A DNA stretch of 64,000 nt from Bretschneidera sinensis (Eukaryota > Streptophyta > Magnoliopsida > Brassicales > Akaniaceae). The translations under genes and the position numbers were made by a program. The notes beneath the pieces were generated by a model. That model was not told the origin of the DNA and did not search any database. It saw only the letters and a program-made list of their open reading frames with translations. This document shows positions 3,204 through 61,799 of the stretch, piece by piece (positions within the stretch are counted from its first letter, which is position 1; every line of letters begins with the position of its first letter). The stretch covers positions 144,254,001 to 144,318,000 of the forward strand of contig CM043698.1 in assembly GCA_023935145.1 (NCBI GenBank), in the 5' to 3' direction.

Positions 3204-3218
3204 TTGGCATACTCGACA

Positions 3219-5057: not shown

Positions 5058-5108
5058 GGGTTGTAGAGTGATTTTTCGCTTCTGAAAAACAAAGGAATAT
5101 GAGTTTTC

Positions 5109-6719: not shown

Positions 6720-6745
6720 GAAGGAAATATTAAGACCTTAACCGG

Positions 6746-6757
6746 GCTCTGATACCA
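6746..6757 (-). other. Primer binding site (initiator tRNA-Met)
   Basis: The minus strand reads TGGTATCAGAGC three bases inside the 5' LTR, the standard complement of the 3' end of plant initiator tRNA-Met used for minus-strand cDNA priming. Confidence 0.92.
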
Positions 6758-6760
6758 ATT

Positions 6761-11052: not shown

Positions 11053-11663
11053 GCCATATAGTTTAAGTGACTGTCTGGATTCTCTGCATTGATTTTATTA
11101 CTCTGTTGCCTGTTTTTCAGTTGCATATCATGTATTGAAGGCTCAAGTTTAGTGGGTAATAGTGGATTTTATTTTGGGTTGTAATCATTCATTTTTTGCT
11201 CCCCTTCCCCATTTATGATTTTTGTAAAAAATAATAATAATAACCTGTTTGTATCAATGATAGAAGATTGTTGTTTGTGTGTTTCCATACTACATGTAAT
11301 AATTTTGATGAACATAATCTTGGACTAGTTAAATGATCTTCAATATGTTGCAGCAATTTTTGGGTTTCTTCTTTTTGAACATCTTGCTAGGTCAATTATT
11401 TTTGCAGTAATTGTGAAAAAAAAAAGGTTCTTTTTGTTTCCTTCCCATAAGAATAGGATCTTTGTGCAACTTTTTGAGGTTAAAGAACCCAAACAGAAAA
11501 ATGTGAGATCTAAGAATGAACAAATGAAAATAGTTTTTCTAGCTACTCAAAGTGAATACACCAAAGCTATCGTTATCAATCAAAAGTATTTTTGAGTTTG
11601 AGTTCACTAGTTGAGGCGAGATGAAGTAGACCTTAACCGTAATTCATATGAACCGGTACTTGT
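11053..11663 (+). other. 3' flank of the DUF1218 gene
   Basis: Contains the 3' untranslated region. An AATAATAATAATAA stretch near 11230 is a candidate polyadenylation region. A short open frame at 11413-11595 has no recognisable product. The last five bases, CTTGT (11659-11663), are the left target duplication of the next element. Confidence 0.5.
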
Positions 11664-13006: not shown

Positions 13007-13019
13007 AATACCCCCAAAC
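13007..13019 (-). other. Polypurine tract of the Athila-like element
   Basis: The minus strand reads GTTTGGGGGTATT just before the LTR start TGATGAGTG, the expected plus-strand primer. Confidence 0.8.
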
Positions 13020-14857: not shown

Positions 14858-15301
14858 ACATTAGTAATCGTGCCCAACTAAACGCTCCACCATCTGATCA
14901 ATAAATGGGAGTGAAAAATGATCCTTAAGTGCGGTACCATTCAACTTACGGTAGTCTAGACACATTCTCCATCTTGACTGCACTCGAGTTGGAACCAACT
15001 CGTCGTCTTTATTTATTACTACTATCAATCTAGCCTGTTTTGGCACGACATGAATCAGGCTCACCCACTCGCTATCAAAGATTGGATAAAGGATCAGAAC
15101 CTTTTGTATAGCTGGGTTGAGCCCTCTTTGTGGCTCCTTCAATGGCTTGGCATTCTCCTCAAAATGTAACTTGTGCATAACCACCGAGGGGCTTATCCCC
15201 TTGATATCTTCAATAGTCCAGCCGATAGCTTCATTGTGCTCTCTTAAAATGTCCAGTAATTTATTCTCTTGAGCATCAACCAAATCTGAAGCTGTAGTCA
15301 C
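14858..15301 (-). pseudogene. N-terminal part of reverse transcriptase (truncated)
   Basis: Athila/Tat-type RT start: EHNEAIGWTIEDIKGISPSV, VMHKLHFEENAKPLKEPQRG, SEWVSLIHVVPKQARL, then RWRMCLDYRKLN and LPFIDQMVERLVGH. The frame stops right after GHDY, before the catalytic YxDD box, and runs into post-pol sequence. So the palm, RNase H and integrase were removed by one internal deletion. Upstream, codons continue in phase through LPDNLKYKFLGPADSLPV and join the gag frame after a one-base shift near 15370-15378, a run of six G. Confidence 0.88.
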
Positions 15302-15321
15302 AGGTAAGGAATCTGCAGGAC

Positions 15322-16458
15322 CTAGGAACTTATACTTAAGATTGTCCGGTAAAGGCTTAAGTTCCTTTTTGGGGGGTTTAAGTGTTGTGTTTCCTCCATC
15401 TCACTGATCTTTTGAGGAGCAGACTCCAAAGTAGCATTTGCTTGCTCAAACAACTTATCCAAATCCAAATCCTCTTCAAATTGAGCAAAGCATGCCTCCA
15501 GGGGGTCCTCAATGCGTGATTCATCCATAGTCTCCTCCGTTTCACTGCTCTTCTGAGGAGCAGACTCCAAGATAACAGTTACTTGCTCACGTAGCTTATC
15601 TAAATCCAAATCCTCTCCAAACTGAGCAAAGCATACCTCCAAAATGTCCTCAGACTCCCCTTCTTTCTTGGGCGCTTGTAATCTCTCAAAATAAGGCGCT
15701 TTAGGTAAAAACAACCTAGGGAGATCCTTAATAATAGGTGTGGCTGTAGATGGCTCAGCATCTCTCTTTTCTTTGTTGCCACTTTCTTGCCTTTGTATAA
15801 GAGTTGATAAATTTCCCTCCGCAAACTGTTTCTTCGGGTTAGGATTGGGTTGACTGAGGAACTTTTTGTTCTCTCCTTCACCCAAGTGACTTGTGATTTG
15901 ACCCATTTGACTTTCTAGCTTGGCAATCACGTGGGTGTTTACTATTGTTGCACTCCTCACTTCACTCATAGATTGGCTAGTCATTTTCATGAAATCATTA
16001 AGAGCGTCCTTCAATGACTGTGAAACCGACACTGGCGCTTGAATGGGAGCTTGGTAAGCGGGTGATGGTGCTGGATAGGCTGAGTGACCATAACTTGAAA
16101 TTGGTGGAGGAAATTCGGGAGGGTATTGATTGTGAGCATGATAAAGGGCTCCTCCCTGATTCATCAGTTGGTTCTGCTCCCATGAAAAATTAGAGTGGTT
16201 CCACCACCCTGGATTGTATGTTTTGGAGTAAGATCCATTTGATTGCCAACAACAGTCATTGAAAGCATTCGTTTGTTCTATGGGATACTCGACAAAAGCC
16301 GGCATTGATGAACAATTCTGTGCTAAATGCATAGGACTAACACAGATGGAACAACTATCAACATTGAATGTATTAGCTGCATTAATGGACTGATCGGTCA
16401 TCCTCATGAAATCCTTGAGGGCATCCTCTAAAGATTGTGAAACCGGTGCTGGATTCAT
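15322..16458 (-). pseudogene. Gag C-terminal region with internal duplications
   Basis: 378 codons. The region CSICVSPMHLAQNCSSMP and a YNPGWWNHSNFSWEQNQ segment identify the gag C-terminal half of Athila/Tat elements. The globular Retrotrans_gag core expected before it is absent, and the first ATG comes only about 160 bp from the primer site. Two duplications are visible: SQSLEDALKDFMRMTDQS against SQSLKDALNDFMKMTSQS, and two acidic units around CFAQFGEDLDLDKL and CFAQFEEDLDLDKL. No protease lies between this part and RT. Coding could in principle be open apart from the late frameshift; whether the product is made is unknown. Confidence 0.85.
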
Positions 16459-16620
16459 CCACGTTTTTGTTCATTTTTTTTAATTCATTTTTTTTGAGAA
16501 ATTGTAAATAAAATAAAATAAATCAAAATTAAAATTAAAATTAAAAAAATTAAAAAAATGCTAACTAAACTAGTAGAAAAATAAAATCAATTCGGACAAA
16601 AATTTCACAAACAAAACAAC

Positions 16621-16638
16621 TCCCCGGCAACGGCGCCA
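16621..16638 (-). other. Primer binding site (tRNA-Asp type)
   Basis: The plus strand reads TCCCCGGCAACGGCGCCA, matching the 3' end of plant tRNA-Asp; the minus strand is its complement, six bases inside the 5' LTR. Confidence 0.85.
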
Positions 16639-16644
16639 AAAATT

Positions 16645-17994
16645 TGTTGTGAGTTTTAAATTACTCGCAAGCGCACGAGTCGTCTGCAATATAGTGTTGT
16701 GCAAGTGCGAGGTCGAATCCATGGGGAATTGCGTTGTAAAAATATAATTTTATCTAAACTAATCTTATTTTAACCTAGTTCCGAATTGTGAATTGTATTT
16801 TTTTGCAAAAGAAATAAAAACTTAAATTAAATTGGTTTAAAACAAATGATAAAAAGACACTAAGGTTTCTGAATCCACCCCACCAAAGTTAAGCATATAT
16901 ATTCATAAAAATAGCCCATCAAAATATTCCATGAATCCAACATAAAACAAAAAACAACGAATATCCCAATTAAACCAAAAGCATCCAATGTACCCGCTTT
17001 TAACAAATCACGAAGGAAATCCAATTTAATCGAAAACGATTCGAAGTATCCATCAGATGAAACACAAGGAATATCCAACAAAACAATTTAAACACAATCA
17101 ATCATAAGATTCTACTCAAATAATTGACAGAACATTTATACTAAAAAAAACATCAGAATTGTATAAACAAAACTGAAACTAATATGCCAAACAACGGCGA
17201 GGCTTCATCTTCAACCTTAGTTAAAGATTCTAGCCACTCATAATCATGAAACCAGAATTCATAATAAAAGTGCGAAACATTAAACTAAAAAGAAATAAAT
17301 TACTTTACATTGGAGAAATTCCACTCGCTGTTGGGCAGCACTTCCCCTTGTGGTAGCAAGCCTTCGGGATCCACCAGAATGCTAGCAGATGTCCACCGGA
17401 TTACACCAAATGGCCCAAGAATTTCACATCGGATTCCTCCTAAGGGCCCTATGGATTGCTCCTAAAGGCCCTCTGGATTCACTTTCTGATGATCTCGGAT
17501 TTTCCGATGATGCCTAAAGCTGAAGTAGAGTGGGTCTTATATAGGCAAATACCACGAGTGCAATGTGTTTCCAATCCGATGTGGGGTGTGAGATATAGAA
17601 ATATGTTTCCAACCGATGTGGGATGTGGGATTTAAGCCTTCACATGCCCTTCAAAACTTCTGCTCACGCTGAAATCCCGCACAGCCTGACCTTTGTCTAC
17701 TAAAACGGCCATAACGTTCTCTAAAAAAATCATTTTTACAAGCCGTAAAATTCTCCAGAAAATAGACTTCCGAATCTTTCTAAGCATATATGGCTCATCT
17801 TCTGGTTCTTCCTGAATCAATACAGTAAAATCCACAAAAATGACTAATCTGCACTTGCAATTCTGGCAATTTTAGTGAACTCATTTCCCAATGCTTGTAA
17901 ACCTGAAAAACAACGAAAAAACTCAAAGTAACAACTTCTTAAGCTAACAAATGTAAATTAAATGGCCAAAATATGCAATATTTGACACTCATCA
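16645..17994 (-). repeat. 5' LTR of the Athila-like element
   Basis: 1,350 bp, next to the tRNA-Asp primer site. Its outer end ATCA is followed directly by the right target duplication CTTGT. Confidence 0.92.
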
Positions 17995-35496: not shown

Positions 35497-36054
35497 GCTT
35501 GTTTGGGGAGAGTTTTCAACCAAAAAAAAAAATCAGTGTTCAAACACTGGCTCTCTTGTTTGAGACAGTGTTAAAAAACCATGCTTGAACACAGTTTTGT
35601 AAAATTTGCTATTCAAACACTGATTTGAGAAGACTGCAAATTGACGTTTTCGGGTTCAAATCAGTGTTCAGTTTTACTTTCACTTTCCCAATTCACAGAC
35701 CTCTTCTCTCACTCGCGACCTCGCCTTCTCCTTCTCCAATTCACAGAGCTCTTCCCTCTCTCTCTGCAATGCCTTCATCTTCTCTCTCCCTATTTCCTTT
35801 CTTTTCACTTTCACCAGGTCGCTCTCATTTCATCGTCAACAAGTTGCGACGGTGACGAGCTTGAAGAAACCCAGAAGAGCGGAGAGAAATTTTCCTCTCA
35901 TTTTCCTACTTCCCAAACACATATTTGTCACTCAGCCTTACCTCACTTCAAATCCCTGAAAAAATATACCCATCTCTCCGATCTGTAACTCTCTCTTACA
36001 TTATCCATCTGAACGGACGACAAGAAGATACCCATCTCTCCGATCCCATTTGTT

Positions 36055-36525
36055 TTTGCTCAAATATGTGTTCATAGTGCTCAAAGCTGATGATAATGGT
36101 GAAGGAGGAACTTTTGCTCTCTACTCGTTGCTGTGTCGACACGCCCGGGTCAACTCATTGCCCAATTGCCAATTGGCAGATGAGAAGCTCAGCGAGTACA
36201 AAAAGCATAGCATTGGGTGGGCACCAAAATCAAGTTTTGGGTCAAGGTTAAAATCTACTCTAGAGAAGCATAGAATGTTGCAGAGGGTTTTGCTTGTGTT
36301 GGCTTTGATTGGGCTTGTATGGTGATTAGTGATGGTGTCCTCACACCAGCTATTTCTGGTAATTTTGGATTTTTTGGGTGGGTTTTGATTTAATTTTGGA
36401 ATTTTGGGTGATATCCATCATTGATTTGGGTTGGTTGATTGATTATTTTGGGCTTCTTTTTTTTGCAGTTTTTTCTGCGGTGTCAGGGCTCGAGCTTTCG
36501 ATGTCGAAATAGCATCACAAATGTG
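36055..36525 (+). pseudogene. HAK/KUP potassium transporter fragment, left arm
   Basis: Two exons from the N-terminal part of a KUP/HAK/KT K+ transporter. The first reads [20 protein letters not shown], then [18 protein letters not shown] and [10 protein letters not shown], and stops at a GT donor near 36359. The second, after an AG at about 36470, gives VFSAVSGLELSMSK. Both segments are signature sequences of the family around membrane helices 2-4. A one-base deletion near 36315 breaks the CMVISDG stretch and a TAG follows SMSK where the family has glutamate. No start region and none of the later helices are present, so no transporter can be made. Confidence 0.92.
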
Positions 36526-36647
36526 AGATCCTCATCCTTGTCTCAATTTTCATCTATTAACATATAATACCTATAAGATGATAAGATAGATCATGGTTGA
36601 AGAGTTTATGGAATTGATGTGGGCCTGTAGTTTCTAAGTCAAATAGT

Positions 36648-36935
36648 TTGGAACCTGTAGTTTCGTTTCAGTTTTTGGTATTCAAAAGGGTTTTTGAAAC
36701 AATTTTGGTAAATGGTTGTGCAGCTAAGAATTTCATTTTATCAATTTTGAGTTCCTATGGTATTACCCATTATCTTCACATTCTCGTTCCACTATCTATT
36801 TTGGATGTTCTGGGCATTGCTTATATTTATTCCCAAGTATCATCCCAACTATCACCTAAATTGAGTACTACTATGTTGTGGAGTCCATGGCGTTATATGC
36901 CACCTCAAGTTGTAGAAATCATTGTTAATGAATAG
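36648..36935 (+). other. Unassigned open frame, left arm
   Basis: 95 codons from MEPVVSFQFLVFKRVFETIL to a TAG at 36933. It contains SILDVLGIAYIYSQVSSQ and SPWRYMPPQVVEIIVNE. The same frame is open in the right arm (46145-46441, 98 codons), where the stop is a CAG codon and reading continues for QPK. It lies between the HAK and VTI1 pieces and could be a further captured exon. The family was not recognised. Conservation between arms does not prove coding because the arms are duplicates. Confidence 0.35.
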
Positions 36936-38071
36936 CCTAAGTGAGCATGTATAGGAGAACTCAATTATCAGGAATCTTCTCAAACTGTTGAAATTGAATT
37001 TATTTCCATGACATATCCACTTTTCTGTATTGTTTTCAGCTGAGGCATTTGTTTTTAATTAGGATGGCCCACTTCTTGAATATTGGAGGTGTTTACATGT
37101 GCTCTACCATCTACTTCCAAGTTTGGTTAGAAGAAACTAAACCATAATCTCCTATAGGTTTTTCTACACACCTTTAAGTTGATAAAAATAAATCCCCTTG
37201 GAGCACTAGGATAGTACAGGAGTTTGAAGAGAAAGAATAAGAGAAGCTATGTAGAAGTTTGGAGCATATTTAGTGCATAACTAGCTCTCTAATTTTAGCA
37301 AGTGTCAAAGGAGGGGCGAGGAGGTACCAGAGAAAATCACATACTTGCATCAATAGACCTGTTAAAGATGTTTATATGGTTTTTTTCATTAACAAGCCTC
37401 CTTTAGCTTCATATTGTAAGATTAACATCTACATGCTAGAATTTGTAATTGAATTTCAAGTTCGAAAAGACTAAATTTGTTTTCGAAACATGCTTAGAAT
37501 TGTTAATAACTGGAAGTTGTTTCCATTGTCATTTTTCAGTTCCCAGAGTGACCTCTTGGAGATTTATGCCATTCTCTCCATGACCTGTTGGAGAAAAACT
37601 ATTGTGTCTTTATAACATGATTCTTCTTTGAGTTTTCAGTGCGAATTTTGACTATTCTTCTCACTTGGAAAAGGTGCTTCACTTGAGGGTTGTAGTCAAT
37701 GTGAATATTCCATAAAATAATGGGTATTTCAATGCGGGTGTTGTGCTTATACATCTGACTAGCTACAACAGTTGCAAGTACCATTTTGATCCACTATAGT
37801 TTTATGAAATGATTTATCTAGTTAGAAGAAGCTCTTTGTAAGTTTTTGTTGAAATTGTTACATGCTGTTTATGGGGCTTCCATGCTTGTTTGAGTTATGA
37901 CTGTAATGGAATGGGAATGGGTCTTGTATTGATTTAGTTTTGCAGATGAAAGTCTGGACTAGATGATGCTGATGTTTTGGTACTGTCTGGATAAACTTTA
38001 TCACATCCTCTATGCTCATAGATTTCTATTCCTCCTTCATTTTGTTGGATCTTTGTTATGATATCTTTTTA

Positions 38072-39004
38072 GGTTTTGGAAGATTCGAAAAATGGACCTT
38101 GAGGCAAGAAGTTTGCAGCCAAGTGTGAAGGCTATGCTTCTTGCTAAGCGAAGGGAATATAAATCTGACCTGAATCAGTTGAAGAGGGAATTCAAAAGAA
38201 TTTCATCACCTATTGCTAATCAGGCTGGCCGTGGAGAGTTGCTGGAATCTGGAATGGCAGATCCACATACAGTATGTCTTGATTGTACTATCTCAGTTTC
38301 TGATTTTATCTGTATTTCATGGAAATTCTTCAAGGAGACTTTGTGATTTACTTAATATTATAACAGAGCTGAGATTCAGATTATTTGTTCAAATTGAGGG
38401 CAGTGGTCCTTTGATATTTGCTTTATCCATCTGTCAACTCCTGCATCTTGGTATAAATACTTGCTATATGTTGTTTGATTTATCTATCCTTATATCTCAA
38501 TATAGCTAAATAAACATCTGTTCATTGGTGCATCACTTTCTGCCGGTTTTTTATTTTCATAACCGACATATTTTTGGATTGCTTAGAATGGAAAATACAA
38601 TTCTGACCTTTTAATTTCAAACAGCTGTCTAAGGTACTTTGAACAGTGCAAGAACTTATACTGACTGTTTGTTGAAATTTCTTTCTTACCATTCAGTTTC
38701 ACTGAAATGATGATAGCTGAGAGTTTGTTTGATGTCCTGCTACTTGAATTGTTACATGGCAGATGTCACGCTGATGTTTGTCTTTTATTTGATTTCTGAA
38801 AAAATTTATAGTGACTGATAAACACTGGTACAGGTTTCTGCTGATCAAAGAGAAAGATTGGCTATGTCAGTAGAGAGACTAAACCAATCAGGTGATAGGA
38901 TCAAGGAGAGTAGAAGAACCATACTGGAGACAGAAGAGCTTGGTGTCTCAATTCTTGAAGATCTGCACCAACAGCGTCAAACTCTTTTAGTTGCCCATAA
39001 CAAG
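38072..39004 (+). pseudogene. VTI1: VTI1-type v-SNARE fragment, left arm
   Basis: Two exons of a plant VTI11/VTI12-like Qb-SNARE, a protein for trafficking to the vacuole. Exon one (about 38072-38271) reads IRKMDLEARSLQPSVKAMLL and YKSDLNQLKREFKRIS, ending GMADPHT at a GT donor. Exon two (38834-39004) reads VSADQRERLAMSVERLNQ, then RRTILETEELGVSILEDL and LLVAHNK. These match the VTI1 N-terminal domain and the start of the SNARE motif. The first exons, the rest of the SNARE helix and the membrane anchor are missing, and the following sequence is LRR kinase. Both exons are open here. Confidence 0.93.
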
Positions 39005-39261
39005 GTAGCATATATAGTCTAATTTTTTTAGAGTTGGGGGATTGTCTAGCATGTTTGCTTGTCAGTTTCAGTTGTGTCAGTCGGTTCACTGTTCTTAATT
39101 TTGGTTTGCAGTTAACCAACCTTTAATGGATATCATTTCCATACTCCAGTGGACAATAAGGACTAACATGTTAACAATAATAGGAGAATATCGCGTAGGG
39201 ATGTTTATAACTATGTTCTTATTAATTGATTCAAAATTGTGTATTGATAATTTTATAATAG

Positions 39262-41577
39262 TGCGGATTTCAATAAGCTTACAGGGGATTTGCCTCTAGA
39301 GCTTGAGAGTCTACCCATTATAGAGAGAATGTAAGACCATTATTCAAGTTTTTATGATCCTTGCAAATCCTTACTAACAAAATATAGTTTTCCTCTTTTT
39401 TTTTTCCTCCTTTGGTATGAATTTTTAATTTTTGTTTCATTTAATGTCCCTTTATTTAAAAGGGTTTTAAAGATTCACATTGATATTCTGATTGCTTGAA
39501 TTTATTTGTTTATATTTTTGTTGTTTATGTTGATCTTGTAGGCTGCTAACCTCAAATAATCTTAGTGGGGAAGTCCCTGAAACATTTGCTAAGCTGACTT
39601 CATTGAAGGAGTTGTAAGCATTTTAGTCATGTTTCATTAAGCTCATATTAATTACTGTTTATCGCATTTGAAGTTGATTAATCATTTTTTCAAACATTAT
39701 GTAGTCAGATCAGTGACAACCACCTTACAGGAAAGATACCTAATTTTATTCAGAACTGGAAAAAACTTGAAAAATTGTGAGAGCTTCATCATTTGTGATA
39801 TTCTTGAGTTCATAGGATTATGCATTATTGCTTATTTGACTCAATATTTTGCAACAACAGAGTAATTCATGCTAGTGGTTTGGTTGGACCAATTCCTGGT
39901 GGTATTACAGCTCTTGAAAAATTAACTGATCTGTAAGTATGATTTTTTTATATTCTAATTAATTTCACGTATATTTTCAATTAGTAATGTACCTTGTATT
40001 GGTTGAACGTGATATATGCAGGAGAATTAGCGATTTAAATGGAACTGAAGCTACCTTTCCGCAACTTAGCAACATGAAAAAGACGAAGACACTGTGAGTA
40101 AAATGTTTACGCAATATTGAACTTAATTTATAAAAAGTGGCAATACCTTCCTCCTTTTTCCTTTTTTTTGGCAACTCAAAGTGTATGTCATTTGTTTGTG
40201 TTATAGGATTCTTCGGAGTTGTAATATCATCGGGCAACTACTTGTATATCTTTGGGAAATGAGAGAATTAAAGAACTTGTTAGTACAGACTTGTTCTCCT
40301 CCTTGCCCCCTTCTTTAATGCAGATAAAAGGATTTTTCCTTTGAAAATGTTGTGATACCATTTGAAGGATCATCTAGTACCCTTTCATAGCTCAGTTTTC
40401 ATTATCTTATATCGATGGAATAAACTCGGTTAGGGCTATATCATGATATTAACTCTGTTATTAGAGAATATGAGAAATGAAGGAACCTTAAGAGATGTGT
40501 TTGTCACACATGTAAAACTGGTGCCGAAACATTGACACTTGAAAGTAGTTCCTTTTTTTTTTTTGTTCTAATGGTTGGTTGCAATGAGCTAGCCCTCTCT
40601 GATCTCTTATCCCCAAACCCCATGTGAAGGTGAAGGTCGAATTTGATCCCAAGTCTTTAGTACAACCCTTAAATGACTATACCAATTAAGCTAGTTGGCA
40701 CCTTCTACTTTGTATGGTTTAGACCTTGTCTCTGACATTCTTTTGTGGCAAAGGCAATTTTTTTTTTCCCGTCTTTTTGATTGCACAGTTCACTATGATG
40801 TTTGAAAGCTTTTTGGTTGTCTACCATTCATCCTGAATTAAACAGGTTATGGAAATAAATACTTTGTTGTTTTTTAATGCTTTGTTTATAAATTCACTTG
40901 CAGAGACCTCAGCTTTAACAAACTGAGTGGAGAAATTCCAAGCACGTATATTGTTCTGAGTAGGGTGGTTTATATGTAAGCATCTGGTTTGTGTGTAAAT
41001 TTTCTTACAATAAAATGCATAAATCCATTTTTCGAGTACTAAGGAACAGTGTACAAGCTCATGTCTTGTTAATTAGCAAGAGATAAAATAAAGGACCATC
41101 ATAATGGCCCAAACAAGCCGACAATATTAGAAGTCACTTTGTTCAAATTGTGGTTTCAACATTGCAGTATTCGAAGTATTAAAGTTGTGTGAAGGATGAT
41201 GGGAAACCTTCTCTTGAATTGAAAATTATTCATAAACTAAGCAAAAAAATGCATAGACTAAGTAGTTATCAGTATTGAACTCTGATATCTAGAGATCATA
41301 GGTTTTCTCTTTTCTGTGACATTGAACTTAAAGTCACATGCACAATTAGTATTAAATCTAAGGCATTAAACTGAAATATATAGTTGTGTTTGTTGCATTT
41401 CAATTTTTTCAGTTATCGTGTTAAAAATTAACATAATCATTTAGATTCCTTGCTAAGATTTTTTTTGCTGAAAGCTCCAAAATTTTATTGATTTTATATG
41501 AGTTTTCAGATATTTAACTTGAAACTTGCTAACTGGACCGATACCTCATTGGGTGCTAGTAAAAGGAAACAACATGT
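39262..41577 (+). pseudogene. LRR-VIII-type receptor kinase fragment, left arm
   Basis: At least eight short exons, mostly of about 72 bp and each one leucine-rich repeat, typical of LRR-VIII kinases of the At1g07650 type. In order: FNKLTGDLPLELESLP (about 39275), SNNLSGEVPETFAKLTSLK (39548), DNHLTGKIPNFIQNWKKL (39712), ASGLVGPIPGGITALEKL (39873), DLNGTEATFPQLSNMKK (40032), NIIGQLLVYLWEMREL (40222), LSFNKLSGEIPSTYIVLSR (40911) and a last exon near 41510. The last exon has an in-frame stop (YLT then TGA), so the copy is broken. Only ectodomain repeats are present; malectin, membrane and kinase regions are absent. Confidence 0.92.
40553..40702 (-). mobile_element. tRNA-derived SINE, left arm
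   Basis: On the minus strand it starts GTGCCAACTAGCTTAATTGG, has an A-box-like TTAATTGGTATAG and a B-box-like GGGATCAAATTCG, and ends in a poly(A) run (poly(T) at 40553-40564 on the plus strand). It lies in an intron of the LRR fragment. The same SINE sits at the mirror position in the right arm. Confidence 0.7.
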
Positions 41578-41593
41578 AAGCTTCTCTTCTCTT

Positions 41594-41634
41594 CAAATAA
41601 GCGGCGCCGATGACAAAACTTATAAAGCACTTCA
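41594..41634. other. Palindrome spacer
   Basis: 41 bp that do not pair, including GGCGCC at 41603-41608. This would be the loop of a hairpin RNA formed by read-through of both arms. Confidence 0.85.
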
Positions 41635-41649
41635 AAGAGAAGAGAAGCT

Positions 41650-43930
41650 TACATGTTGTTTCCTTTTACTAGCACCCAAGGAGGTACCGGTCCAATTAGC
41701 AAGTTTCCAGTTAAATATTTGAAAAGTCATATAAAATCAATACAATTTTGGAGCTTTCAGCAAAAAGAATCTTAGCAAGGAATCTAAATGATTATGTTAA
41801 TTTTTAGCACGGTAACTAAATAAACTGAAATGCAACAAACACAGTTATATATTTCAGTTTAATGCCTTAGATTTAATACTATTTGTGCATGTGACTTTAA
41901 GTTCAATGTCACAGAAGAGAGAAAACCTATGGTCTCTGGATATCAGAGTTCAGTATTGATAACTACTTAGTCTATGCATTTTTTTGCTTAGTTTATGTAT
42001 AATTTTCAATTCAAGATAAGGTTTCCCATCATCCATCACACAACTTTAATACTTTGAATACTGCAATGTTGAAACCACAATTTGAACACAGTGGTTTTCA
42101 AAATTGTCGGCTTGTTTAGGCCATTATGATGGTCCTTTATTTTATTTCTTGCTAATTAACAAGACATGAGCTTGTACACTATTCCCTAGCACTCGAAAAA
42201 TGGATTTATGCATTTTATTGTAAGAAAATTTACACACACAAACCAGATGCTTACATATAAACCACCCTACTCAAAACAATATACGTGCTTGGAATTTCTC
42301 CACTCAGTTTGTTAAAGCTGAGGTCTCTGCAAGTGAATTTATAAACAAAACATTAAAAAACAACAAAGTATTTATTTCCACAACCTGTTTAATTCAGGAT
42401 GAATGGTAGACAACCAAAAAGCTTTCAAACATCATAGTGAACTATGCAATCAAAAATATCGAAAAAAAATTTGCCTTTGCCACAAAAGAGTGCCACAGAC
42501 AAGGTCTAAACCATACAAAATAGAAGGTGCCAACTAACTTAATTGGTATAGTCATTTAAGGGTTGTACTAAAGATTTGGGATCAAATCCGGCCTTCACCT
42601 TCACATGAGGATAGGGGATCAGAGATGGCTAGCTCATTGCAACCAACCATTAGAACAAAAAAAAATGAACTACTTTCAAGTGTTAATGTTTCGGCACCAA
42701 TTTTACATGTGTAACAAACACATCTCTTGAGTTTCCTTCATTTATCATATTCTCTAACAACAGAGTTAATATCATGATATAGCCCTAACCGAGTTTATTC
42801 CATCGATATAAGATAATGAAAACTCAGCTATGAAAGGGTACTAGATGATCCTTCAAATGGTATCACGACATTTTCAAAGGAAAAATCCTTTTATCTGCAT
42901 TAAAGAGGGGGGCGAGGAGGAGAACAAGTCTGTACTAACAAGTTCTTTAATCCTCTCATTTCCCAAAGATATACAGGTAGTCGCTCGATGATATTACAAC
43001 TCCTAAGAATCCTGTAACACTTTGAGTTGCCAAAAAAAAAGGAAAAAGGGGGAAGGTATTGCCACTTTTTATAAATTAAGTTCAATATCGCGTAAACATT
43101 TTACTCACAGTGTCTTCATCTTTTTCATGTTGCTAAGTTGCGGAAAGGTAGCTTCAGTTCCATTTAAATCACTAATTCTCATGTATATATCACGTTCAAC
43201 CAATACAAGGTATATTATTAATTGAAAACCCACATGAAATTAATTAGAATCTAAAAAAATCATACTTACAGATCAGTTAATTTTTCAAGAGCCGCAATAC
43301 CACCAAGAATTGGTCCAACCAAACCACTAGCCTGAATTACTCTGTTGTTGCAAAATATTGAGTCAAGTAAGCGATAATGCATAATCCTATGAACTCAAGA
43401 ATATCACAAATGATGAAGCTCTCACAATTTTTCAAGTTTTTTTCAGTTCTAAATAAAATTATGTATCTTTCTTGTAAAATGGTTGTCACTGATCTGATTG
43501 CACAATGTTTGAAAAAATGATTAATCAATTTCAAATGCGATAAACAGTAATTAATATGAGCTTAATGAAACATGACTAAAATGCTTACACTCCTTCAATG
43601 AAGTCAGTTTAGCAAATGTTTCAAGGACTTCCCCACTAAGATTATTTGAGGCTAGCAGCCTCCAACATCAACAAAAATATTAACAAATAAATTCAAGCAA
43701 TCAGAATATCAATGTGAATCTTTAAAACCTTTTTAAATAAAGGAACATTAAATAAAACAAAACATTAAAAATTCATACCAAATGAGGAAAAAAAGAGAGG
43801 GCAAAACTATATGTTGTTAGTAAGGATTTGCAAGTATCATAAAAACTTGAATAATGGTCTTACATCTCTATATCGGGTAGATTCCCAAGCTCTGGAGGCA
43901 AATCCCCTGAAAGCTTATTGAAATCAGCAC
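41650..43930 (-). pseudogene. LRR-VIII-type receptor kinase fragment, right arm
   Basis: Mirror copy of 39262-41577. The last exon (about 41652-41719) is open here, giving NLLIGPVPPWVLVKGNNM, and LPVYLWEM and LPPELGNLP keep the ancestral form where the left arm has LLVYLWEM and LPLELESLP. Other exons carry their own changes, for example NIIERLPVYLWEM and altered splice surroundings. A kinase domain is absent. Confidence 0.9.
42527..42665 (+). mobile_element. tRNA-derived SINE, right arm
   Basis: Starts GTGCCAACTAACTTAATTGG, contains TTAATTGGTATAG and GGGATCAAATCCG, and ends in a run of nine A. It is the mirror of 40553-40702, so insertion came before the inverted duplication. Confidence 0.7.
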
Positions 43931-44190
43931 TACTATAAAATTATCAATACATAATTTTGAATCAATTAATAAGAACATAGTAATAAACATCCCTACGCAA
44001 TATTCTCTTATTATTGTTAATATGTTAGTCCTTATTGTCCACTGGAGTATGGAAATGATATCCATTAAAGGTTGGTTAACTGCAAACCAAAATGAAGAAG
44101 AACAGTGAACCGACTGACACAACTGAAACTGAGAAGCAAACATGCTGGACAATCCCCCAACTCTAAAAAAAATAAGACTATATATGCTAC

Positions 44191-45017
44191 CTTGTTACGT
44201 AACTGGTTTAGTCTCTCTACTGACATAGCCAATCTTTCTCTTTGATCAGCAGAAACCTGTACCAGTGTTTATCCGTCACTATAAATTTTTGCAGAAATCA
44301 AATAAAAGACAAACATCAGCATGACATCTGCCATGTAACAATTCAAGTAGCAGGACATCAAACAAACTCAACTATCATCATTTCAGTGAAACCGAATGGT
44401 AAGAAAGAAATTTCAACAAACTGTCAGTATAAGTTCTTGCACTTTTCAAAGTACCTTAGACAGCCGTTTGAAATTAAAAGGTCGGAATTGTATTTTCCGT
44501 TCTAAGCAATCCAAAAATATGTCGGTTATGAAAATGAAAAAACCGGCAGAAAATGATGCACCAATGAACCGATGTTTATTTAACCATATTGAGATATAAG
44601 GATAGATAAATCAAACAACATATAGTAAGTATTTGTACCAAGATGCAGGAGTTGACAGATGGATAAAGCAAATATCAAAGGACCACTGCCCTCAATTTGA
44701 GCAAATAATCTGAATCTCAGCTCTGTTATAATATTAAGTAAATCACAAAGTCTCCTTGAAGAATTTCCATGAAATACGGATACAATCAGAAACTAAGATA
44801 GTATAATCAAGACATACTGTATGTGGATCTGCCATTCCAGATTCCAGCAACTCTCCACGGCCAGCCTGATTAGCAATAGGTGATGAAATTCTTTTGAATT
44901 CCCTCTTCAACTGATTCAGGTCAGATTTATATTCCCTTCGCCTAGCAAGAAGCATAGCCTTCACACTGGCTGCAAACTTCTTGCCTCAAGGTCCATTTTT
45001 CGAATCTTCCAAAACCC
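44191..45017 (-). pseudogene. VTI1: VTI1-type v-SNARE fragment, right arm
   Basis: Mirror of 38072-39004. Exon one has lost one base in the LQPSVKA stretch, shifting the frame before MLLARRREYKSDLNQLK. Exon two (44191-44257) has VSADQRERLAMSVERLNQ but then jumps to the last two codons, losing about 115 bp that include the TEELGVSIL segment. Confidence 0.9.
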
Positions 45018-46144
45018 AAAAAGATATCATAACAAAGATTCAACAAAATTAAGGAGGAATAGAAATCTATGAGCGTAGAGGATGTGATAAAGTTTATCCA
45101 GACAGTACCAAAACATCAGCATCATCTAGTCCAGACTTTCATCTGCAAAAGTAAATCAATACAAGACCCGTTCCCATTCCATTACAGTCATAACTCAAAC
45201 AAGCATGGAAGCCCTATAAACAGCATATAACAATTTCAACAAAAACTTACAAAGAGCTTCTTCTAACTAGATAAATAATTTCATAAAACTATAGTAGATC
45301 AAAATGGTACTTGCAACTGTTGTAGCTAGTCAGATGTATAAGCACAACACCCGCATTGAAATACCCATTATCCTGTGGAAGATTCACATTGACTACAACC
45401 CTCAAGTGAAGCACCTTCTCCAAGTGAGAAGAATAGTCAAAATTCTCACTGAAAACTCAAAAGAAGAATCATGTTATAAAGACACAATAGTTTTTCTCCA
45501 ACAGGTCATGGAGAGAATGGCATAAATCTCTAAGAGGTCACTCTGGGAACTGAAAAATGGCAATGGAAACAACTTTCAGTTATTAACAATTCTAAGCATG
45601 TTTCGAAAACAAATTTGGTCTTTTCGAACTTGAAATTTAATTATAAATTCTAGCATGTAGATGTTAATCTTACAATATGAAGCTAAAGGAGGCTTGTTAA
45701 TGAAAAAAACTGTATAAACATCTTTAACAGGTTTATTGATGCAAGTATGTGATTTTCTCTGATACCTCCTCGCCCCTCCTTTGACACTTGCTAAAATTAG
45801 AGAGCTAGTTATGCACTAAATATGCTCCAAACTTCTACATAGCTTCTCTTATTCTTTCTCTTCAAACTCCTGTACTATCCTAGTGCTCCAAGGGGATTTA
45901 TTTTTATCAACTTAAAGGTGTGTAGAAAAACCTGTAAGAGAGTATAGTTTAGTTTCTTCTAACCAAACTTGGAAGCAGATGGTAGAGCACATGTAAACAC
46001 CTCCAATATTCAAGAAGTGGGCCATCCTAATTATAAAAAAATGCCTCAGCTGAAAACAATACAGAAAAGTGGATATGTCATGGAAATAAATTCAATTTCA
46101 ACAGTTTGAGAAGATTCCTGATAATTAAGTTCTCTTATACATGC

Positions 46145-46441
46145 TCACTTAGGCTGTTCATTAACAATGATTTCTACAACTTGAGGTGGCATATAACGCC
46201 ATGGACTCCACAACATAGTAGTACTCAATTTAGGTGATAGTTGGGATGATACTTGGGAATAAATATAAGCAATGCCCAGAACATCCAAAATAGATAGTGG
46301 AACGAGAATGTGAAGATAATGGGTAATACCATAGGAACTCAAAATTGATAAAATGAAATTCTTAGCTGCACAACCATTTACCAAAATTGTTTCAAAAACC
46401 CTTTTGAATACCCAAAACTGAAACGAAACTACAGGTTCCAA
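46145..46441 (-). other. Unassigned open frame, right arm
   Basis: 98 codons, mirror of 36648-36935 with FWVFKR for FLVFKR and a C-terminal extension QPK. Not recognised. Confidence 0.35.
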
Positions 46442-46574
46442 ACTATTTGACTTAGAAACTACATGCCCACATCAATTCCATAAACTCTTCAACCATGATC
46501 TATCTTATCATCTTATAGGTATTATATGTTAATAGATGAAAATTGAGACAAGGATGAGGATCTCACATTTGTGA

Positions 46575-47041
46575 TGCTCTTTCGACATCGAAAGCTCGAG
46601 CCCTGACACCGCAGAAAAAAACTGCAAAAAAAAGAAACCCAAAATGACCAATCAACCAACCCAAATCAATGATGGATATCACCCAAAATTCCAAAATTAA
46701 ATCAAAACCCACCCAAAAAATCCAAAATTACCAGAAATAGCTGGTGTGAGGACACCATCACTAATCACCATACAAACCCCAATCAAAGCCCACACAAGCA
46801 AAACCCTCTTCAACATTCTATGCTTCTCTAGAGTAGATTTTAACCTTGACCCAAAACTTGATTTTGGTGCCAACCCAATGCTATGCTTTTTGTACTCGCT
46901 GAGCTCCTCATCTGCCAATTGGCAATTGGGCAGTGAGTTGACCCGGACGTGTCGACATAGCAACGAGTAGAGAGCAAAAGTCCCTCCTTCACCATTATCG
47001 TCAGCTTTGAGCACTGTGAACACATATTTGAGCAAAAACAA
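46575..47041 (-). pseudogene. HAK/KUP potassium transporter fragment, right arm
   Basis: Mirror of 36055-36525. The first exon is fully open: [20 protein letters not shown] ... [16 protein letters not shown]. The second keeps SMSKEHHK, where the left arm has a stop, but has one extra T in the run at its start, shifting the frame. So each arm is broken in a different place. Confidence 0.92.
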
Positions 47042-47616
47042 ATGGGATCGGAGAGATGGGTATCCTCTCGTCGTCCGTTCAAATGGGTACTGTAAGAGAG
47101 AGATACAGATCGGAGAGATGGGTATATTTTTTCAGGGATTTGAAGTGAGGTAAGGCTGAGTGACAAATATGTGTTTGGGAAGTAGGAAAATTTCTCTCCT
47201 CTCTTCTGGGTTTCTTCGAGCTCGTCACTGTCGCAATTTGTTGACGATGAAATGAGAGCGACCTGGTGAAAGTGAAAAGAAAGGAAATAGGGAGAGAGAA
47301 GATGAAGGCGTTGCAGAGAGAGATGGAAGAGCTCTGTGAATTGGAGAAGGAGAAGGCGAGGTCGCGAGTGAGAGAAGAGGTTTGTGAATTGGGAAAGTGA
47401 AAGTGAAAACTGAACACTGATTTGAGCCCGAAAACATCAATTTGCAGTGTTCTCAAATCAGTGTTTGAACAACAAATTTTACAAAACTGTGTTCAAGCAT
47501 GGTTTTTGAACACTATGTCCCAAACAAGAGTGCCAGTGTTTGAAAAGATTTTTCAGTGTTTAAACACTGAAAAGAGTTTTTGAAAACTCTCCCCAAACAA
47601 ACCCTTAGTTTTCCAG

Positions 47617-48068
47617 TGTCTCATTTCACACACAAAAATAATTTTCTGAAGAACTATTTATATTGAATGATTTTTACAATGAACTAAGACCAACTATTTA
47701 TAGTAGCTGTGATGAAGTAACATGATAACACCAAACCTCTAACTGATAATGAAAAAAGAATAAAACTATGATAATCCTAACTATCTAATAATCCTAACAG
47801 ATGATAAATAGGAATTATCTAAAAGATAAATACAACCTAATATCAAAACAATAAAGATAATAACTTGCCCCCAGGGCATATGGCGCAGTGGTAAGTTCGA
47901 CCTTCGAGATGGCGATGTCCCCGTGAGGTCTCGGGTTCGAGTCCTGTCACTGCGCTGCACATCCTGCGATTTACATCCTCCATAGGGTCCTAGGGCAAGG
48001 ATTGTGAGGGCGGTCGTAATGGTCCGTTATCCAAAAAAAAAAAGATAATAACTTGGTTTAATCCTACA
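47617..48068 (-). repeat. Copia LTR interrupted by a SINE
   Basis: Direct copy of 48073-48345: ATTTCACACACAAAA, ATTTTCTGAAGAACTATTT, GATAATCCTAACTATCT and GTTTAATCCTACA at the end, split by a SINE at 47868-48041. It starts TGTCTCATTTC about 10 bp from the end of the palindrome and is separated from the next LTR by only four bases (TAAA). It has no internal region of its own. Confidence 0.85.
47868..48041 (+). mobile_element. tRNA-derived SINE with 14 bp target duplication
   Basis: 174 bp, from CCCCCAGGGCATATGGCGC to a run of A. A box TGGCGCAGTGGTA at 47881-47893 and B box GGTTCGAGTCC at 47934-47944 are near-perfect polymerase III promoter elements. It is flanked by AAGATAATAACTTG at 47854-47867 and 48042-48055, a perfect 14 bp target duplication made by LINE machinery. 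Intact boxes, tail and duplication indicate a young insertion. Confidence 0.93.
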
Positions 48069-48072
48069 TAAA

Positions 48073-48345
48073 TGTAAAATTTCACACACAAAAAGAATTT
48101 TCTGAAGAACTATTTTTTTTTAAATCTTTTTTACAATGAACTGAGGCCAACTATTTATAGTAGTTGTGATGAGGTAACATGATAACACCAAACCTCTAAC
48201 TGATAATGACAAAAGAATAAAACTATGATAATCCTAACTATCTGATAATCCTAACAAATGATAAATAGGAATTATCTAAAAGATAAATTCAACCTAATGT
48301 CAAAACAATAATAATAAAGATATAATAACTTGGTTTAATCCTACA
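48073..48345 (-). repeat. 3' LTR of the Tork-like copia element
   Basis: 273 bp, TGTAAAATTTC to CCTACA on the plus strand. The minus strand reads TTTAAGGGGAGCTA just before the LTR start TGTAGGATTAAACC, a normal polypurine tract. Confidence 0.88.
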
Positions 48346-50324
48346 TAGCTCCCCTTAAACCAAGTCCTTCATAACTCATCATGCCCAAAGACTTCTTAAG
48401 CTTCTGAAAAGTGTTAACTTTGAGCGGCTTCTTGAAGATGTCTGCAACCTGTTCTTCTGAACAGCAGTACTCAATCACGATCTCTTTCTCTTTCACCAAG
48501 TCTCGTATAAAGTGAAACTTGATATCAATGTGCTTACTTCTACCATGGTATACTGGATTCTTGATCAAGGAAATGGTGGACTTGTTGTCACAGTAGATCA
48601 CCGTGGGAGCATCATGTTGATGCTTTAACTCAGAAAGCATGCGACACAGCCTGTGTAGCACCACCACCAGCTACAATGTACTCAGCTTTTGTTGTTGATA
48701 AAGCAACCACCTGTTACTTCTTCGATAACCAAGAAAATACTCCAGAACCAAGATGGAACGCAAATTCGAAAGTGTTTTTCCTCTTCTTCATATCACCTGC
48801 CCAGTCACTATCTGTATATCCAACAAGCTCGACTTTGTTAGCGGAAGAGTAAAAGATACCATCACCCAGTGTACCTTTCACATATCGCAAGATATGTTTG
48901 CCAGCCTGCAAGTGAGATTGCCTCGGAGAGTCCATGAACCTACTAATAAGCCCAACTCCATAAGAAATATCAGGCCTAGTAGAAGTTAAGTATCTCAGAC
49001 TTCCTACTAGCCTCCGAAAGATGGTAGCACTAACTAGCTCACCAGACCTATCCTTCTCCAACTTCAACCTTTCTTCAACTGGAGTTAGCATCGGCTTACA
49101 TCCCTCCATCTTAAACTTTTTCAGCACATCACCAGCATACTTCTTCTGACACACAAAGATACCATTATCTGTCTGAGTCACCTCAATGCCGAGAAAGTAG
49201 AACATCAACCCCAAATCTGTCATCTCGAAATGACTAGTCATTACACTCTTGAACTCTGCAATCATCTCAGGATTATTATCGGTAATGATCAGATCATCAA
49301 CATATAAGCACACAATAAGAATATATTCATGGGAATTGGATTTGATATACAAAGTGTGCTCATAAGGACATCTCTAAAACTCATGCTGGATAAAATATAT
49401 GTCAATGCGTGTATACCACGCTCTGGGTGCTTGTTTCAACCCATATAAGGCATTCTTCAGCTTGTAGATCTTATTTTCTTGCCTCTTCTTTACATACCCA
49501 GTAGGTTGCTGTATGCAGACTTCCTCCTCTATCTCCCCATTTAAAAATGCGGATTTCACATCCATCTGGAAGATTCTCCAGCGATTCTGTGCAGCAAGAA
49601 ACACAATCAAGCGAACAGTGTCAAGTCTGGCAGCAGGAGAAAACACATCAAAATAATCGATCCGTGGCCTTTGCTTGTAACCTTTCGCAACCAGACGCAT
49701 TTTGTAGCGTTCCACCTCACCATTCGGCTTGTATTTTGTCTTATACACCCACTTAACACCAATGGGCTGCTATCCACCTGGCAAATCAGTAAGCTCTTAT
49801 GTGTTATTCTTTTCAATCGCACCTATTTCCTCTTCCATTGCTTTTAACCAGCAATTATTACGAGCAGCATCTCCATATGTGATAGGATCACAATCTGCAA
49901 ACAATGCAAAGTTCACCAACTCTTCATCTGTTGGATCGTCGTCATTACTGAGAACACAATCTTGCAAACGAGCTGGGAACACCAGTTCACGTTGTGGACG
50001 ACTAGAAGATTCTGCTGGATGTGGGTTCACTGGGGATGGTGGAACCATTGGGGTCGAAACCGGATCCTCTCTGGGATGACCATCAATCTCATCCAGGTCA
50101 ATATCAATATCTGAATAGCTCCCCATACCGCAAGACCAATCCCAATATCCCTGCTCATCGAAGGTAACGTCCCTGCTGACAATCACCTTTTCGATCACTG
50201 GATTATAAAGTTTATAACCCTTCGTTACCTGACTGTAGCCGATGAAGATGCACTTTTCTGCCTTATCATCAAGCTTCTTTCTTAAACCATCAGGTACATG
50301 AGCATAGGCAATATACCCAAACAC
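48341..50324 (-). pseudogene. Copia RT and RNase H (broken)
   Basis: Four frame pieces. The linker after integrase (FGYIAYAHVPDGLRKKLDDK, FIGYSQVTKGYKLYNP) leads to RT: TKYKPNGEVERYKMRLVAKG, MDVKSAFLNGEIEEEV, then YVDDLIIT, which keeps both catalytic aspartates, and GLISRFMDSPRQSHLQAGK. RNase H gives YCDNKSTISLIKNPVYHGRS and KHIDIKFHFIRDLV. Interruptions occur near 49360, 49790 and 48700. Active-site residues remain, so inactivation is by frame breaks. Confidence 0.92.
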
Positions 50325-50351
50325 TCGTAAGTGTTCAATACAGGGTTTGAG

Positions 50352-51417
50352 TCAAGTCCAGGCTTTCTGATGAGTCTTTTCGAGAACACTATTGATGGAA
50401 CATCTATTCAACCGATAGAACGCATAAGCAACTGCATCACCCCAAAAACCTTTGGGCAGTTTCTTCAAGTGTAACATACACCTGACCATGTCTATGATTG
50501 TTCTATTTCTCCTCTCTGCTACACCATTCTGCTGAGAAGTATATCTCGCTGTCAACTGATGATTGATGCCATATTTTTGCAAGAAACTATCATAGACAAC
50601 ATATTCTGTCCCTCGATCTGTTCTCAAAGTCTTGATAGACCTTTCACTCTGATTCTAGGCATCACAAGCATCTGACTTCTGCTACAAGAAATACACCCTA
50701 AGCCTTCCTGCTGAAGTCATCAATAAAGGTAATAAATACCTATATCCCCTATTCGATGGAGTCTCCACATAGCATAGGTCTGAGTGCACTAACTCCAATG
50801 GCCGACTAGTTCTCCACGTCTTCTTTGTAGAAAATGGGTCTCTGTGCTTCTTTCTCACAACACATCTCATATACCTTCTTTGGAGGATCAATGATCGGCA
50901 ATCCTGAAACCATCTTCCTTAAAGAAAGTAGCTTCAGACTTCCAAAGTTTACATGGCCAAACCACATATGCCATAACCAACTCCCATCTCTGATTACAGA
51001 ACTAAGGCATTGTAAAATGTCACTGTTAATATGCAGTGGAAACAAACGATTTGATGACATATTTACCATTGCTATCAAACCTTTCTGTGCATCATTGATG
51101 GTGCTTACCCTTTTGTAGATCCGCATATCATACCACTTCTCTGAAAGTTGCCCCATACTTAATAGATTTTGATGCAGACTCAGGACAAACAATACCTCTG
51201 AGATGGTATTCTTGGATCCATCCTTCAAAGAGATGGATATTTTTCCCTTCCCCATCATTGACACCTTTGAGCTACTCCCAAACTTCACTTCCGAAGTAAA
51301 TGTCTCATCCAATTCTGAGAACATCTCCTTCCTACCACACATGTGGTTGCTGCAGCCTAAATCCAGAAACCATTTGTACTTGACATCATCCACTGCTACA
51401 CTACACGCTAGCAGCAA
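50352..51417 (-). pseudogene. Copia protease and integrase (broken)
   Basis: The protease has WFLDLGCSNHMCG, with DLG in place of the usual DSG. The GAG-pre-integrase domain follows (LWHMWFGHVNFGSLKLLS), then the integrase core with LVHSDLCYVETPSNRGYRY, LRTDRGTEYV and QQNGVAERRNRTIIDMVR, covering the D, D and E positions. Frame breaks lie near 50640-50680 and 50810-50890. Confidence 0.9.
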
Positions 51418-52191
51418 TGTTTCTGAATAGTATCCATCTTCTGCAACATTTGCCTGGAAATTTTTCCCATTGGATTTGCACTCATTCTTGTAGTGGCCAT
51501 ATCTTTTGCATCTGAAACACTGAATCTGAGATTTATTCTTTTGATTAGTGTTATTGCCTCCTCCGCCTTTCGTCTGGCTAGATCTGGAAGCACTTCCCCT
51601 CTAATTTTGCAAATTCTAACCCTTCTAGCTTGCCTCAGAATTCTTCTGGGTCTCCACTTTGTCTTTCTTAGGACTCAACTGGCTCTGGAAAGCTTCTTCC
51701 ACCTCGATCTCAGATTTCTCATCCAAACGTTGTTCGTGGGCTTGGAGTGAGCCCATCAACTCATCCAACATCATCTTCTCGAGATCTTTAGACTCCTCGA
51801 TGGCAGTCACCTTGTACTCAAACTTCTCAGTCAGTGTTCGAAGAATCTTCTCCATGATCTGAACATCTGAAATTGTCTCACCATTGGACTTCATCTGATT
51901 AACAAGTGCCAATGTCCATTAGCAGTAATCTGCCACCTTCTCCGTTTTCTTCATCTGGAGAAGCTCTAGCTACTTCCGCATGGTCTACAAACGGAATTTC
52001 TTCACCTTTTCTGCTCCCTTGTATGTGTTCATCAGAATGTCCCACGCCCGTTTTGCTGATGTTGTATGTGCAATTTTCTCAAAAATCACCAGATCCAGCG
52101 GCTGATTAATGAAAAACCCTGCCTTCAAATTCTTCATGGTTGTTGCAGCATCTGCTAGCCCAACAATACTCTCGGAAACAACAGTCCACAA
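51408..52191 (-). pseudogene. Copia gag (5'-truncated, broken)
   Basis: Starts inside gag at MWTVVSESIVGLADAATTMK, then INQPLDLVIFEKIAHTTSAK and AWDILMNTYKGAEKVKK. After a break come TISDVQIMEKILRTLTEKFE and a charged linker, then the zinc knuckle CFRCKRYGHYKNEC near 51480-51520. The normal N-terminus is lost at the junction near 52197. Confidence 0.88.
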
Positions 52192-61203: not shown

Positions 61204-61356
61204 TTTTAGATGACGCCCCTAAAACAATGTTAATAAAGTCAGAATTGTAATATTTTTGGCAAAAGAAGGTATAATCACAAATTTGTATTATTACAGTCAG
61301 AATTAATATTAATAATTATTACAGTCTTAATATTATAAACAAATATGAAATTATAC

Positions 61357-61448
<92 letters not shown>

Positions 61449-61799
61449 ATATTATAATAAATACCTTATTAATTATAATAATAATTAAAAACTAATATTA
61501 TAAGTAGAAATAAAATAATACTAAAAATTATAATATATATGATCATAATTATTCTATTACAATATAATAAGACATTTAAATATTAATATTCATAATAATT
61601 CTAAAAATCAGTATTTGTAGTCACGCCTAAAAATCCTTTTAATCTTGATTGTTATCCTTGTGAATTATACTAAGGTGTATCCAGTATTTGCACTCAAGCC
61701 TAAAAATCAGCAGTACCATTTTCATTGATTTTTAAACCAATTGTAGCACAAATCATGAGAACTTATCAAATTTATATAACTTCAGGAATAAAAGCTAAT
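61204..61799. other. Region upstream of TnpD
   Basis: AT-rich, with the ATT microsatellite at 61361-61441. No coding sequence. Confidence 0.5.
61361..61441. repeat. (ATT)n microsatellite
   Basis: About 27 uninterrupted ATT units, then degenerate ATTATAAT sequence. Likely length-polymorphic. Confidence 0.97.

Follow-up and report, generated by a model that had tools for sequence, protein, structure and literature searches.

A probable palindromic PIF/Harbinger-type transposon with two left ends and fragments of three host genes in Bretschneidera sinensis

How do pieces of three unrelated genes come to lie in a 12 kb palindrome, and how does such a structure come to occupy several places on one chromosome? 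The question is raised by a locus of Bretschneidera sinensis (Akaniaceae; assembly GCA_023935145.1) in the stretch of 64,000 nucleotides analysed here, C2:144254001-144318000 (contig CM043698.1), which is called the window below. Its palindrome holds fragments of a HAK/KUP potassium transporter gene, a VTI1 v-SNARE gene and a receptor-kinase gene. We suggest that it is probably a non-autonomous PIF/Harbinger-type gene-fragment transposon that has the left end of its family on both sides and no right end. It would have arisen by the mirrored duplication of a broken, one-ended element together with the adjoining kinase DNA, followed by transposition as a unit. All genome-wide searches covered 1.21 Gb.

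Structure and cargo of the palindrome

The borders of the palindrome and the 41 bp spacer between its two inverted arms, both proposed in a first-pass annotation, agree with the self-BLASTN comparison of the window, the match of the ends and a count on the sequence; the left element end, GCTTGTTTGG, begins at 35497, and the right end, TTA included, finishes at 47607. Two inverted matches are found in the self-comparison: 35528-38886 pairs with 47553-44204 at 96.4% identity and 38998-44197 pairs with itself at 92.4%. In a global alignment, 5694 of the 5944 aligned bases of the arms are identical (95.8%), with 226 gap columns. The inverted arms are therefore real, while the earlier wording "near-perfect" was generous. 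About 11.9 of the 12.1 kb are aligned arm positions, i.e., the inverted repeats fill most of the element, as in Foldback elements; Foldback is used here for a structural class, not a lineage.

From the outer edge inward, each arm consists of an end of ~560 bp, the HAK/KUP fragment, a filler, the VTI1 fragment and the receptor-kinase fragment, see Table 1, and all cargo within an arm shares one orientation. The earlier remark that an inverted duplicate of a whole cargo is unusual holds. Pfam identifies K_trans in the HAK part of a window arm (2.5e-17), as well as V-SNARE (1.3e-10) and V-SNARE_C (2.5e-13) in the VTI1 part. At the HAK donor the domain runs from profile position 1, beginning upstream of the captured part, and both V-SNARE domains are also present at the VTI1 donor. 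Within the window arms there is no Pfam match in the kinase part. What marks it as kinase is a gene at C2:148.22 Mb, to which its DNA is 91.8% identical and other parts of which score as malectin and kinase. Beyond the four closest loci in the C2 cluster, it is 70-87% identical to further loci on C2 and C8. We place the capture border at 39195, because the cluster genes have common DNA further upstream that is absent from the element. The best donors of the three fragments are unlinked (C5, C9 and C2), which upholds their description as unrelated host genes; no parental region with the three side by side underlies the palindrome. In the three forward frames of the left arm and the three reverse frames of the right arm, no transposase domain was found. 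Thus, host gene fragments with donors elsewhere lie between terminal inverted repeats (TIRs), and the frames scanned hold no transposase of their own, as in Pack-TYPE elements.

The kinase cluster has features of its own. Tandem repeat arrays adjoin kinase genes at C2:148229698-148232124 and C2:142419011-142420603, and a 2.3 kb inverted repeat (96.9%, spacer of ~620 bp) lies beside a kinase gene at C2:142455576-142460785. Native receptor-kinase genes at C2:142.40 and 142.46 Mb are also paired in inverted orientation; these pairs are palindromic in part and turn at other points.

The carrier family and its ordinary copies

The outermost ~560 bp of each arm correspond to the left (L) end of a transposon family that is dispersed over the genome. 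The pattern TWA-GGGCTTGTTTGGGGAGAGTTTTCAAAAACTC, with up to two mismatches, has 47 matches in the genome against 0 for the reversed control, and 38 of the 47 retain TWA, a flank that the pattern itself favours. A similarity search, in which the best 40 of 438 candidate places were scored and listed, contributed 36 and the pattern 35 members to a set of 71 L ends that leaves aside the window, the copy at 150.7 Mb and duplicates between the two lists. This set was compared with a genome search for DDE_Tnp_4, which we take to be the Harbinger-type transposase domain; the best 150 of 639 candidates were scored. A match lies 4.5-6.4 kb inward of 7 of the 71 listed L ends, on the same strand in 6 of the 7. 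Within 15 kb, 8 pairs of L end and DDE_Tnp_4 are observed against ~0.26 expected; the eighth is outside the element. One relative, at C9:4.165-4.172 Mb, reads L end, DDE_Tnp_4 (1.6e-16, in a frame with stops) and then a right (R) end; its similarity to the R ends found in ordinary copies (on C1, C5 and C9) is 86-89%.

The C9 relative shares its L and R ends with the ordinary copies and carries DDE_Tnp_4, and the target site is TTA; the family is assigned to the PIF/Harbinger type. A 3-bp TTA duplication is found at the 150.7 Mb copy, while the window copy has TTA on its right side only. PMC4561436 deals with target sites of the form TTA/TAA in PIF/Pong/Harbinger elements. The precedents named in the first-pass annotation, Pack-MULEs (gene-capturing Mutator-like elements, MULEs) and Helitrons, do not apply to a PIF/Harbinger-type carrier with a TTA site. 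Helitrons have neither TIRs nor target site duplications, and both TIRs and the TTA duplication are present here. A Pack-MULE is rejected as the site at 150.7 Mb is 3 bp and not the 9-11 bp of Mutator-like elements (PMC3310237), and the transposase-bearing relatives have DDE_Tnp_4.

Three ordinary copies were read, at C1:140.70, C5:2.02 and C9:42.48 Mb (the last without its very end). They have the order L end, HAK, VTI1 pieces, R end, and HAK begins at the same border as in the palindrome. Two loci resemble them by search matches (C4:70.96 and C6:61.08 Mb), and an L end with HAK is found at C5:8.42 Mb. In all three copies read, VTI1 continues beyond the point at which the palindrome switches to kinase. 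In the palindromic lineage, then, the tail of VTI1 and the R end are absent and kinase DNA is present. An ordinary member has one L and one R end; both ends of the palindrome are L ends, and the R end is seen in the ordinary copies and the C9 relative, not in the palindrome. A segment of ~1.05 kb (C5:2018809-2019857) occurs in the ordinary copies on C1, C5 and C9 and is absent from the palindrome.

Other sites on C2 and the centre of the mirror

The VTI1/LRR junction, at which VTI1 meets the leucine-rich repeat (LRR) kinase fragment, was searched for in the genome with up to two mismatches. It is present at four places (control 0), two in the window and two in a sister copy, each an inverted pair. 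The single-arm copies of this junction that the first-pass annotation had proposed to look for were not found; a single-arm VTI1-LRR chimaera diverged beyond two mismatches would escape this search. Read by eye, the two parts are joined at a ~3-bp TTG microhomology.

The sister copy, C2:150698243-150726905, is a longer version of the palindrome with two L ends. It is split by two insertions of ~5.3 kb with direct terminal repeats (98.0% and 97.2%), both in one arm, which appear by structure to be long terminal repeat (LTR) retrotransposons. Without the insertions its arms are ~9 kb, and 8505 of 8899 positions are identical. The turning point lies just past a putative transmembrane exon, as judged by eye: native kinase genes read AAAGAATGATCATGAATGTGGTGGTATAACCC (one with one base different), while the palindrome tracks them to TATAA and then turns to TCATTCTTT, with a loop of ~20 bp and ~1 bp of microhomology. 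The window and the 150.7 Mb copy have no common flank, and their homology ends at the L ends. The sister copy is flanked by TTA on both sides, and its flanks match (~67-82%) a paralogous stretch immediately to the left. There they are continuous over a single TTA, and this stretch therefore represents an empty site for the 150.7 Mb copy.

A third site, C2:153190828-153185916, has an L end, HAK, VTI1 up to the position of 38827 and a kinase transmembrane region in opposite orientation, after which there is no match. The opposite orientation fits a palindrome deleted across its centre, so we regard the site as a deleted remnant.

The window arms end ~2.9 kb before the centre of the sister. The two spacer scraps, CAAATAAGCGGC and CCGATGACAAAACTTATA, begin 30 bp apart as exact matches in the inner arm of the sister; a loose alignment of the spacer scores 15, the same as the best of 200 shuffles (15), and the claim about the spacer rests on the exact scraps. 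The spacer is consistent with templated filler at a deletion in an ancestor that had longer arms. Among the four arms of the window and the sister, distances are 3.16-3.85% in the outer block and 4.59-5.52% in the inner block, and the third site is, in the outer block, 1.95% from the left arm of the sister, compared to 3.35% between the sister's own arms. Such near-star distances among the four arms would be expected had mirror and spread taken place at about the same time. At informative sites of the inner block, the left window arm groups with the right window arm at 10 sites, with the left sister arm at 9 and with the right sister arm at 5.

Table 1. Features of the palindromic element, in positions of the window.
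Position	Strand	Feature	Basis
35497..47607	.	Whole palindromic PIF/Harbinger-type element (probable), two L ends, including right TTA	Self-BLASTN, alignment, end match
35497..36056	+	Left copy of L end (TIR GGGCTTGTTTGG.. and subterminal repeats; first bases degraded here)	Same end dispersed genome-wide; HAK donor homology begins at 36057
36057..37413	+	Intron-containing HAK/KUP K+ transporter fragment (captured), left arm	97.1% to C5:103588945-103590310 (DNA comparison); K_trans in right-arm open reading frame and at donor
37414..37625	+	HAK-VTI1 filler, left arm	Pieces (query 417-553, 558-625) match many genome places
37626..39191	+	Captured VTI1 v-SNARE fragment, left arm	94.4% to C9:53469046-53470637; V-SNARE, V-SNARE_C
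39184..39215	+	VTI1/LRR junction, left arm	Genome search; palindromic copies only
39195..41593	+	Malectin/LRR receptor-kinase fragment (captured), left arm	Four loci in the kinase cluster at C2:142-148 Mb match at 89-95%
41594..41634	.	Spacer, 41 bp, with scraps CAAATAAGCGGC and CCGATGACAAAACTTATA of deleted inner arm (putative)	Both scraps in sister copy, C2:150716594-150716635
41635..43997	-	Receptor-kinase fragment, right arm (mirror)	Self-comparison
43976..44007	-	VTI1/LRR junction, right arm	Junction search
43998..45463	-	VTI1 fragment, right arm, ~105 bp shorter; mirror border approximate	Self-comparison
45464..45675	-	Filler, right arm; mirror borders approximate	Self-comparison
45676..47034	-	HAK fragment, right arm; mirror borders approximate	K_trans 4.7e-16
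47035..47604	-	Right copy of L end	TAAGGGTTTGTTTGG at C2:144301574-144301607
47605..47607	.	TTA target triplet, right side; left counterpart degraded (ATA/TAC)	End match

Elsewhere in the window, direct repeats of 421 bp (99.5%, ~5.15 kb apart; TGATGCAACT...TTGCATCA) at 1611-7182 resemble the pair of a young LTR retrotransposon, and LTR-like direct repeats of 1.35 kb (95.6%, 5 kb apart) lie at 11663-17994. A Copia-like element, with open reading frames judged by eye, adjoins the palindrome at 47623-52000. An abundant repeat of the right flank also starts at 47623, 16 bp beyond the palindrome end, and recurs at 48079-48311. A cluster of short imperfect inverted repeats (75-79%) is found at 61342-61590.

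Origin of the mirror, alternatives and known systems

We suggest that the palindrome probably originated from an ordinary L-HAK-VTI1-R element, for which a same-ended DDE_Tnp_4 relative would supply the transposase. The steps could have been as follows; (i) a broken, one-ended copy with shortened VTI1 was joined to nearby receptor-kinase DNA at the ~3-bp microhomology, (ii) a break just past the kinase transmembrane exon turned back on itself, by fold-back synthesis or sister-chromatid fusion, using the ~1 bp of microhomology and leaving the ~20 bp loop, and (iii) this yielded two mirrored L-HAK-VTI1-LRR arms, restoring two compatible ends. We infer this order of break, kinase join and turn-back from the sequences. 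The two inverted L ends could then serve as a TIR pair, with which a related transposase would move the unit on C2 (144.3, 150.7 and 153.2 Mb); that the unit transposed is suggested by the sites and the empty site. Later, a deletion would have removed ~2.9 kb from the inner part of each arm of the window copy, and the spacer would be the templated filler that stayed behind.

Several observations weigh against this explanation. Within the family, 9 of the 47 pattern matches lack TWA although the pattern asked for it, one DDE_Tnp_4 match is on the opposite strand, and the C1 ordinary copy is flanked by TTA/TTG. A clear target site duplication is seen at the 150.7 Mb copy only, the left target bases of the window copy being degraded, and in a search for an empty site of the window copy, made with its joined flanks, none of the matches listed joins both over their lengths: the left flank matches only itself, apart from an 18-base extension in one match, and 40 of the 41 listed matches are right-flank sequence. 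The spacer scraps also occur in the kinase genes at C2:142.40 and 142.46 Mb, and CCGATGACAAAACTTATA at C8:84.82 Mb as well. The HAK part of the palindrome is 97% identical to its donor, more than that of the ordinary copies (92-94%, over shorter stretches with the same capture border); conversion or a rate difference may lie behind this gap. Finally, 13 of the 16 informative sites in the outer block group the two window arms, as opposed to 2 for the left window arm with the right sister arm and 1 with the left. Conversion between arms is therefore possible, and so is a history in which one chimaeric half was mirrored independently in each palindrome, although the latter is a less simple reading. 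The pattern is close to a star, with some window-specific stem or conversion.

Concerning function, transcription through the centre would give double-stranded RNA, the ~6 kb stem of which would match genes of the HAK, VTI1 and kinase families, and it is possible that such a hairpin RNA could silence them. That the locus acts as a silencer like Mu killer of maize, its transcribed centre giving small interfering RNAs against the three gene families, is doubtful. The layout is that of Mu killer, with two like ends and an inverted duplication, and of the donor 21-mers, introns included, 624 of 1346 (HAK), 378 of 1572 (VTI1) and 220 of 2418 (kinase gene c148_2) are unchanged in both arms. However, the arms are 4% apart and much of the donor match is intron.

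The main alternative for the origin, in which the kinase mirror came first, is unlikely. Here, a broken element would have joined one arm of a pre-existing inverted kinase pair in the C2 cluster, and conversion would have copied it to the other. The LRR mirror may indeed predate the element, since the cluster has its own inverted gene copies at 142.40 and 142.46 Mb, and the arm sites lean towards pairing the window arms. The native pairs, however, turn elsewhere (~q8190; q7815/5671) than the 150.7 Mb copy (~q8971). Moreover, both arms share everything from the VTI1/LRR junction outward to the L ends, so conversion would have to cross >3.5 kb of non-homologous insert. Segmental duplication along C2, rather than transposition, is very improbable: all three sites found are within 9 Mb of one chromosome, but the homology between the window and the 150.7 Mb copy stops at the L ends and the paralogous empty site has one TTA. 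An assembly artefact, whether a missed hairpin adapter or collapsed haplotypes, is hardly credible, for although palindromes are a known assembly trap, the arms are ~4% apart with arm-specific indels, both LTR-type insertions of the sister sit in a single arm, and there are three sites.

Mirrored duplication of a broken element, followed by transposition, can be compared with several known systems. Mu killer is the best-known self-mirrored silencing transposon, and the comparison with it made in the first-pass annotation is apt. Derived from MuDR, which it silences, Mu killer has an inverted duplication of ~1.3 kb and two TIRs that both come from the mudrA end; amplification of its centre did not succeed in the study cited (PMC3440606). 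In both loci the two ends derive from one parent end and partial internal sequence is duplicated in inverted orientation, and hairpin RNA is proposed for Mu killer. Mu killer carries transposase sequence, whereas the palindrome has PIF/Harbinger-type ends, three host-gene fragments, arms of 6-9 kb and three sites. What is new relative to the Mu killer layout is the host-gene cargo, the PIF-type ends and the several sites.

A described Pack-PIF element has 15-nt TIRs and captures of 163 bp and 58 bp, explained by fusion of neighbouring insertions (PMC8903248). It resembles the palindrome in being non-autonomous and PIF-type, with captured gene fragments and local spread, and differs in that the inverted repeat of the palindrome takes in the whole cargo and the palindrome lacks one natural end. 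In FoSTeST, described for Pack-TIR elements of animals, a break is followed by a microhomology template switch to nearby DNA, and the chimaera transposes (PMC8277862). The same sequence of break, switch and transposition is proposed here; the mirror duplication and the loss of one end are features of the palindrome that the accessible account does not mention. Galileo is a Foldback-like element of the P superfamily, in which long inverted repeats likewise form much of the element (PMC4168063); the palindrome is of PIF type, and its host-gene cargo has no counterpart in the available part of that account. Some MULEs have several TIRs, which are mostly arranged in tandem (PMC3310237). No description of a palindromic Pack or PIF element was found in a literature search that covered titles and abstract openings, with most subscription journals outside its coverage.

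In the sister copy the turning point can be read base by base, and the same genome also holds the donors, ordinary relatives, an empty site and a third copy that bears a deletion. This makes testable both the origin of plant inverted-duplicate loci that can seed small RNAs and the way in which Pack elements join fragments of several genes. It can be speculated, at a little below even confidence, that genes can be captured and elements rescued by the mirror duplication itself, a one-ended transposon regaining two working ends through inverted copying of the end it has left. If so, a single step would sweep a neighbouring gene into the element and create a mobile hairpin locus directed at several families of host genes.

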